A stretch of 31,625 nt of DNA from a virus. Positions 9,073-10,264 of this stretch are shown piece by piece (the first letter of the stretch is position 1; each line of letters opens with the position of its first letter). A program made the position numbers and the translations under genes. The notes under the pieces were generated by a model. The model was given only the letters and a program-made list of their open reading frames with translations. It ran no database searches and was not told where the DNA came from. The stretch covers positions 1-31,625 of IMG/VR virus record IMGVR_UViG_3300043775_000486. The stretch is one strand, 5' to 3'.

Positions 9073-9279
9073 ATGAAATCAACCGACTCACAGACTGCCT
9101 TGATCAAGGGGTGGCTATTGAATGGCTACTCTATTACACAGCTAGATGCATTGAATATGTTCGGCTGCTTCAGACTATCTGCAAGGATCAATAACCTACG
9201 GGAAGAAGGTCTTGACATCATCACCGACATGGTGACTATCAATGATAAACGAATAGCTAAATACTACTTGACAAAATGA
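9073..9279 (+). CDS. Small winged-helix/HTH protein (HTH_39-like)
   Basis: A 68-residue protein with SQTALIKGWLLNGYSITQLDALNMFGCFRLSARINNLREEGLDI in its first two thirds. This pattern (IT...AL..FG..RL.ARI..LR..G..I) is the HTH_39-like family common in phages, followed by a two-strand wing (ITDMVTINDKRIAKYYL). It probably binds DNA; no partner is known. It sits three bases after the methyltransferase and overlaps the next start by ATGA. Confidence 0.75.
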   Translation: MKSTDSQTALIKGWLLNGYSITQLDALNMFGCFRLSARINNLREEGLDIITDMVTINDKRIAKYYLTK

Positions 9280-9425
9280 GAAGGAGAAACCTAACCGAAT
9301 ACGAAAAGGAACTGATCTTTGAAAGATGGCAGGATCGGATACCTACAAAGGTGATTGCCATAGAATTTGGGGTCAGCTATATGTGCATATACAATCAGCT
9401 AAAAAAACGCTACCTAGTAGGATAA
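9276..9425 (+). CDS. 49-aa HTH protein
   Basis: ATG at 9276 overlaps the preceding stop (ATGA) and TAA is at 9423-9425. The peptide begins MRRRNLTEYEKELIFERWQD and continues IPTKVIAIEFGVSYMCIYNQL, which reads as a recombinase- or homeodomain-type helix-turn-helix. The N-terminus is very basic. Its end abuts promoter P3, so a regulatory role on the RNA or initiator downstream is possible. No family named. Confidence 0.65.
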   Translation: MRRRNLTEYEKELIFERWQDRIPTKVIAIEFGVSYMCIYNQLKKRYLVG

Positions 9426-9447
9426 TTCAAAAAAAGTATTATATTCG
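9418..9447 (+). promoter_or_regulatory. Promoter P3, in front of structured RNA
   Basis: The -7 box TATATTCG (9440-9447), followed by TGTATC, is nearly identical to P1 and P2. At the same 19-nt spacing, the -33 position reads TAG rather than TTG, so the upstream box is weak and activation may be needed. Initiation would fall near 9452-9455, at the base of the first hairpin of the RNA. Confidence 0.5.
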
Positions 9448-9453
9448 TGTATC

Positions 9454-9540
9454 AAATCATTCCTGAGGTGAGAGGCTAGAATGATTTCAAAAGGTTAACT
9501 ATAACCTAGCCCGACAGACTCTCACCTGTTGGGCTTTTTT
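9454..9540 (+). ncRNA. Structured leader/small RNA with kissing-loop complementarity
   Basis: About 87 nt between promoter P3 and a strong terminator, with no start codon or reading frame. Hairpin 1 is a perfect 9-bp stem (9454-9462 with 9479-9487) and a 16-nt loop. Hairpin 2 is 6 bp with loop ACTA (9492-9497 with 9502-9507). Hairpin 3 is the terminator. AGGTGAGAG in loop 1 (9466-9474) is perfectly complementary to CTCTCACCT (9519-9527) in the terminator loop. GGCTAG (9474-9479) can also pair with CTAGCC (9506-9511), giving a competing fold. It may be a small RNA or an attenuator for the initiator gene. It matches no riboswitch class I recognise. Confidence 0.65.
9508..9540 (+). terminator. 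Strong intrinsic terminator
   Basis: AGCCCGACAG (9508-9517) pairs with CTGTTGGGCT (9526-9535) over ten pairs with one G-U, around an 8-nt loop. T6 (9535-9540) follows, then ATTTT. The structure ends eight bases before the ATG of the DUF4373 gene, so read-through or antitermination is needed to express that gene from P3. Confidence 0.85.
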
Positions 9541-9547
9541 ATTTTAC

Positions 9548-10264
9548 ATGAAAAAAGAAGCATATTACTTTTCGCACGATTCAAATGCGAAAGATGATCC
9601 TAAGATCCTTCAGCTAAGAATGGAAATGGGATGGGAGGGGTACGGTCTATTTTGGGCATTGATTGAGATGCTTAGAAATGAATCAGATCACAGGATGCAA
9701 AAGCATTACAAAAGCATTGCATTTGCATTGCACACGCAAGAAGATAGCATCAAGAGATTGATCAATGACTTTGATTTATTTGCTATTGATGATCAGTACT
9801 TTTGGTCTGAAAGCCTTTTGAAAAGGATGGAGATGAAAGAAGCCAAGTCTGAAAAGATGCGTGAAGCAGCAAATAAAAGGTGGAATAAGGATGATGATGC
9901 AAAAGCAATGCATAAGCATAGCATAAGCAATGCGGAAGCAATGCAATTAAAGGAAAGGAAAGGAAAGGAAACAAAAGAAAATATCTTAACAGAGGAAAGT
10001 CACAATGAGATATTTAGAAAGCTATGGACTAGTAGTATATGGCTAGAAGGAATAGCAATAAAAAATAAGGCTACAAAGGAAGAAGTACAAAAGCACCTAA
10101 ATGATTTTAGACTTGAATGCATCTTAAAGGATGAATTGAAGGTAGATGAAAAGGATGCTAAAAATCACTTCATTAATTGGATGAAAAGAGGTAACCCTAT
10201 CCCATTGAAGGAAGAGAATTCACCTAAGTATCCAAAGTCTACGATAGAAGATAATTGGTGGTAA
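9548..10264 (+). CDS. Replisome organiser / replication initiator (DUF4373)
   Basis: A 238-residue protein. Residues 1-95 form the Lin1244/Lin1753-like DUF4373 winged-helix domain: YYFSHDSNAKDDPKILQLR, GWEGYGLFWALIEMLR, and a strand pair near FWSESLLKRM. Residues 96-150 are a charged low-complexity linker and the C-terminal part is helical. Such proteins bind the origin and load helicase in phages without their own initiator of DnaA type. The gene contains two sets of 11-bp DNA repeats (9703-9735, 9905-9948) and a purine tract, the lambda-O style of origin within the initiator gene. The terminator just upstream suggests regulated entry. Confidence 0.85.
   Translation: MKKEAYYFSHDSNAKDDPKILQLRMEMGWEGYGLFWALIEMLRNESDHRMQKHYKSIAFALHTQEDSIKRLINDFDLFAIDDQYFWSESLLKRMEMKEAKSEKMREAANKRWNKDDDAKAMHKHSISNAEAMQLKERKGKETKENILTEESHNEIFRKLWTSSIWLEGIAIKNKATKEEVQKHLNDFRLECILKDELKVDEKDAKNHFINWMKRGNPIPLKEENSPKYPKSTIEDNWW
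9703..9735. repeat. Iteron array 1, three 11-bp repeats
   Basis: GCATTACAAAA, GCATTGCATTT and GCATTGCACAC follow each other at exact 11-bp intervals (9703, 9714, 9725). Eleven is not a multiple of three, so the periodicity is not caused by repeated amino acids. The core GCATTGC is the reverse complement of the core in array 2. Confidence 0.75.
9905..9948. repeat. Iteron array 2, four 11-bp repeats
   Basis: GCAATGCATAA, GCATAGCATAA, GCAATGCGGAA and GCAATGCAATT start at 9905, 9916, 9927 and 9938. A degenerate further copy (ATGATGCAAAA) precedes at 9894. The 11-bp spacing places each copy on the same face of the helix. The array is inverted relative to array 1 and leads directly into the purine tract. 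Confidence 0.8.

Follow-up and report, generated by a model that had tools for sequence, protein, structure and literature searches.

A conserved loop-loop contact joins a 5′ hairpin to an intrinsic terminator ahead of phage replication genes

What kind of RNA is read from the interval between a promoter and the replication initiator gene of this virus record, and does the complementarity between two of its loops matter for the gene behind it? The window, by which we mean the whole 31.6-kb virus record that was analysed, carries this leader between an HTH gene (9276-9425) and the initiator gene (9548-10264). We compared the leader with its relatives, with leaders of the same plan in other phages and with known RNA systems.

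Architecture of the leader

All elements lie on the plus strand. The HTH_23-like gene (49 aa) ends just upstream of a -7 promoter box, TATATTCG (9440-9447), of the Bacteroidota TAnnTTTG type, and a similar box stands upstream of the first hairpin in 85 of the 86 RNAs of group I, the family to which the window leader belongs. A simple sigma-70 scan, the model of which is not of the TAnnTTTG type, returned one weak minus-strand match, at chance level. The last codons of the mini-HTH gene (LVG stop) probably overlap an upstream promoter element, and the same layout is seen in relatives. Behind the box follow the 5′ hairpin P1 (9454-9487; 9454-9462 paired with 9479-9487, 9 bp around a 16-nt loop), a small hairpin P2 that occurs in group I only (AGGUUA-ACUA-UAACCU, 9492-9507; 9492-9497 with 9502-9507, 6 bp) and P3, a terminator hairpin with its U tract (9508-9540; 9508-9517 with 9526-9535, 10 bp, 8-nt loop). 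From the start of P1 to the end of the terminator the predicted RNA, as read from the sequence, measures about 90 nt, and the leader region folds better than 200 of 200 shuffles (z -3.3). An earlier note on this DNA had held that no reading frame lies within the leader, and we found no ORF of at least 60 aa overlapping 9448-9547; three ORFs of 20-46 aa touch this interval, all of them short and extending into the flanks.

P3 has the form of an intrinsic terminator, a GC-rich hairpin followed by a U tract, and is predicted to be stable by itself (about -20 kcal/mol at 25 °C). It is the sole terminator-like site in a 1.6-kb stretch. The initiator gene (Lin1244_N / phrog_2562) has its start codon only 7 nt past the U tract, which leaves no room for a promoter. 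With a sole terminator and no intervening promoter, initiator expression would therefore need read-through of P3, and this requirement is our chief ground for considering attenuation of transcription.

The loop-loop contact is kept while its letters change

The segment L1 of the P1 loop (AGGUGAGAG, 9466-9474) is complementary over 9 nt to L3 of the terminator loop (CUCUCACCU, 9519-9527), and seven of the nine pairs (9468-9474 with 9519-9525) fall within both loops. No further L1 copy was found elsewhere in the window. The promoter box, P1, P2, the terminator and this complementarity had all been described in the earlier note, and each was recovered at the same position. The P1 of 9 bp with a 16-nt loop is correct for the window, but in the family P1 extends to about 12 bp through an internal C.A mismatch followed by two more pairs, which leaves a loop of 8-10 nt. 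Because of this extension the kissing core of the family is 7 bp, with the pattern GU-NNN-AG / CU-NNN-AC (GUGAGAG at 9468-9474 in the window).

The covariance model was built from P1, P2 and P3 only, with the loop contact left out; it aligned 95 matches, from which 86 distinct RNAs were used for the counts. At least 7 complementary L1/L3 bases are present in all 86, among which six core types occur (AGG, GAG, GGU, GGA, CGG and CGC). When L3 was permuted among the RNAs (1000 permutations), a mean of 17 and a maximum of 30 of the 86 were complementary, and between types the L1/L3 complementarity runs to no more than 5 nt. Covariation in the stems P1, P2 and P3 exceeds both controls, with 96.3% paired and double changes at 17 pairs; these counts of compensatory change incorporate shared descent and are not counts of independent events. 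Between L166 and L167, whose initiators are 99.6% identical, a U to A change in L1 is matched by an A to U change in L3, which on sequence grounds is a fresh compensatory event. Compensatory change within the loop-loop helix, the mark by which a conserved kissing-loop RNA is recognised, is thus present in this family, and a complementarity that is kept while its letters change shows that the contact is real. The earlier proposal of a structured phage RNA between promoter and initiator gene, held by a kissing contact, is borne out in every one of the distinct RNAs, including the complementarity and covariation in relatives that had been set beforehand as its check.

A second pairing proposed at the same time, 9474-9479 with 9506-9511, which would open the terminator, is confined to two of the 86 RNAs, those of the window and L012; it is incidental and was rejected as a switch. 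In 68 of the 86 RNAs the P1 region pairs with the 5′ arm of the terminator over 3-4 nt at most, and with no conserved antiterminator helix a classical switch is therefore absent.

Loop types and neighbouring genes

The RNA is present in nearly all relatives of the window initiator. A search with the terminator pattern only, blind to genes, returned 90 places, with an initiator-type ORF downstream wherever the contig continues, and these initiators fall into three N-terminal families. A prophage or plasmid source was considered and rejected, the six matches of the terminator pattern on genome contigs of unrelated taxa being apparently due to chance; blastn against phage and plasmid records found none, and the cultured cases described below are too divergent for blastn.

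Each of 14 identical HTH peptide ends accompanies more than one loop type (two or three), and all three initiator families share at least four loop types. By these comparisons the loop type tracks no neighbour, only the RNA's own other loop, and we rejected the adjacent HTH peptide and the initiator as controlling factors, the loop types being independent of both. The same observations bear on a DNA-level element, in which the inverted 7-9 bp repeats would be sites for a regulator or for the initiator. Inverted repeats are what such an element would offer, and group II leaders (see below) add a third, direct copy; however, the repeats lie in the loops of hairpins whose stems covary, with G-U pairs on the plus strand, and they do not follow the neighbouring DNA-binding proteins, and we consider this explanation extremely improbable.

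Direct repeats that resemble iterons (AAGCAATGC / AAGCATTGC), in part spaced by 11 bp, lie within the initiator gene at 9694-9952 of the window, and to judge from them this segment is a likely replication origin. The initiators of L112, L135, L078, L080 and the window look modular, with differing N-terminal domains and similar C-terminal ends (for example ...PKYPKSTIEDNWW), and the same leader RNA stands in front of them.

Leaders of the same plan in other phages

The leaders found with relatives of the third initiator lack sequence similarity to group I and follow the same plan, namely a promoter, a 5′ hairpin, a spacer, a terminator with a loop complementary to that of the 5′ hairpin, and the replication operon next. 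Across such sequence-unrelated leaders nothing is common beyond promoter, loop complementarity, spacing, terminator and position, and L1 and L3 are separated by 39-49 nt in 25 of 25 representatives. Group II has short hairpins with loops of 6-7 nt (for example GUUGCAG, AGGCAG and GUGCAG), and in each case the terminator loop is complementary; group III has contacts of 8-9 nt (for example GGCUCGAC and GCUCUCACA), and most of its leaders are followed by a small gene, with the initiator behind it. By eye, the terminators of L244, L249, L259, L294 and L351 show AGUA opposite GAA, resembling the sarcin-ricin/loop E motif, and tandem GA internal loops are seen in group III. Further uncultured phages have leaders of the same topology ahead of their replication operons, and the cultured phages with such a leader are elemoA, Harreka_1, phi13:2, lillamy9-1, hemulen6-1, tooticki9-1, 11b and phi19:3. 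No such leader was seen by eye in the stretches upstream of related initiators in two Vibrio, one Porphyromonas and one fecal phage.

In single leaders the chance probability of the contact is modest (from <0.001 to 0.08), and for this reason it is recurrence at one and the same position that carries the argument for the wider class. Most loci were found via their initiators, the terminator-only scan and the whole-genome scans being independent of them. An earlier, loose kissing-loop descriptor gave many background matches, and a strict descriptor was substituted; this descriptor, the parameters of which were set after these leaders had been seen, has exactly one match each in the window, lillamy9-1, Harreka_1 and 11b, all four scanned as whole genomes, its background being about one stray match per 4.5 Mb with both strands counted.

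Group II carries a third copy of L1 between the terminator and the initiator start, or spanning the start/ATG (L243, L244, L249, L300, L242, L301 and L259). This copy matches L1 over 7/7, 6/6 and 6/6 nt in three types (GUUGCAG, AGGCAG and GUGCAG, respectively) and changes with the loop type, so that two alternative partners, L1 and the translation start, are open to the group II terminator loop. The third copy is absent from group I, group III and the cultured leaders. Seen in three types only, it is the best hint of an action in trans or on translation.

Comparison with known systems

A cmscan of the window and 21 related loci against Rfam 15 gave no leader match at the gathering cut-off, and up to E 10 nothing came near a gathering score, in agreement with the earlier note, which had recognised no known RNA family; a side match is one tRNA elsewhere in L350. 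The c4 antisense RNA of Rfam and other phage RNA motifs are small phage RNAs with complementary segments, and none of them was matched in the window or the 21 loci. In the literature searched, with most subscription papers outside its coverage, we found no published description of such a leader, and the phage leader appears to be an undescribed switch on replication.

The CI RNA / seqA-seqC leader of satellite phage P4 is, like the leader described here, untranslated and placed ahead of replication genes, and premature termination of these genes is governed by RNA segments of a single transcript region that pair with one another (PMC4825925). In lysogeny P4 relies on an antisense RNA that is processed, whereas here the loops belong to one short leader with its own intrinsic terminator; set against the two-segment design of P4 CI, L3 in group II has two complementary partners, L1 and the third copy. 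Among the relatives, the lillamy and mumin phages were virulent when isolated (PMC7077304), and prophage immunity is therefore not a general explanation.

The attenuators of pT181 likewise consist of a leader with a 5′ hairpin and an intrinsic terminator, and kissing loops initiate their regulation (PMC4878617). In pT181, however, the kissing partner of the 5′ hairpin is an antisense RNA, and the terminator stem finds its partner in an antiterminator, whereas here it is the 5′ loop that pairs with the terminator loop. Pairing of the pT181 type, between the leader and the 5′ arm of the terminator, reaches 6 nt, and none longer, in 7 of the 86 RNAs, and judged by this antiterminator the leader lies outside the pT181 kind. 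The RNA I and RNA II of ColE1 form loop-loop helices of about 7 bp, the type of which is changed by compensatory mutation; these are two RNAs from opposite strands, whereas the contact described here is within one RNA. The comparison with plasmid copy control drawn in the earlier note is apt as an analogy only, and an antisense gene was not identified.

Discussion

The elements of the leader, the conserved contact and its position are directly legible in the sequence. We propose that the leader is a cis-acting transcription attenuator, a reading that is probably, if by no means certainly, correct, in which the loop contact would tune read-through into the replication operon. Transcription by the host RNA polymerase would begin at the TAnnTTTG promoter, and the transcript would form P1, the spacer and then the intrinsic terminator P3 just ahead of the first replication gene, which would be expressed solely through terminator read-through. 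The P1 loop would kiss the P3 loop, and the contact would set the frequency of completed termination and hence the amount of initiator. An effect of the contact on read-through, its direction and any regulating factor are what we infer.

As the topology is conserved and the sequence is not, the contact would act on the terminator itself, rather than as part of a protein-binding RNA. It would be dispensable for termination, because P3 alone is already a strong hairpin, and it may either help or hinder the terminator, the sequence accommodating both since P3 alone is stable, there is no conserved antiterminator and, in group I, the folded P2 shortens the spacer. By a hand estimate of group I geometry, the stack of P1, kiss and P3 is about 75 Å long, and the spacer spans about 50-55 Å with P2 folded and about 124 Å if P2 melts. 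With so short a spacer, P2 would have to melt for a cis contact in group I, and the short spacer also fits a contact in trans.

Such a contact is the basis of a model of self-titration, which we regard as possible yet doubtful. The terminated RNA would accumulate with the template copies and limit initiator synthesis of the same loop type, its loops pairing with L1 or L3 of nascent or full-length transcripts and, in group II, also with the initiator start site, and the loop types would be orthogonal, like plasmid incompatibility groups. The model would suit the fast switching of types between phages with nearly identical neighbours, with self-complementarity perfect and cross-type runs of at most 5, and it gains from the copy at the group II initiator start in three types and from the group I spacer, which by the hand estimate disfavours cis contact. 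However, that copy is confined to group II, compensatory drift alone would likewise produce types, and the constant spacing is sufficient for cis contact in groups other than I.

Rather unlikely, in our view, is a stand-alone noncoding RNA, acting as a decoy, protein partner or homo-oligomer, with its fold held by the kiss and the initiator made by constant leak-through. The predicted start at P1 and end at the terminator would yield a compact RNA of the length given above, and other large phage-related RNAs assemble as homo-oligomers (PMC12286853). Yet no unpaired sequence is conserved between the groups, and the position is fixed ahead of replication genes, not scattered over the genome. We give little credence to a riboregulator in which a metabolite or a phage or host protein would bind the kissing complex or the internal loops and shift termination. 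The AGUA/GAA and tandem GA internal loops seen by eye in groups II and III would offer binding sites of this kind, and there is a precedent in Rop, which binds the kissing loops of ColE1 by shape; a candidate binding pocket conserved across the groups was nevertheless not found, and the HTH peptide next door does not follow the loop type.

Whether it acts as the cis attenuator that we favour or otherwise, the leader points to a shared RNA device at a key replication step of flavobacterial phages, in which gene control is little known. Its presence in the cultured elemoA, lillamy, 11b, Harreka and phi13:2 makes it immediately testable, and with its natural loop types a set of orthogonal kissing pairs is ready to hand. 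More tentatively, widespread self-complementary leaders may sense their own concentration, and hence phage copy number, and shut off initiators of the same type in trans. If such copy-sensing in trans is true, the orthogonal loop types would be incompatibility groups among co-infecting phages.
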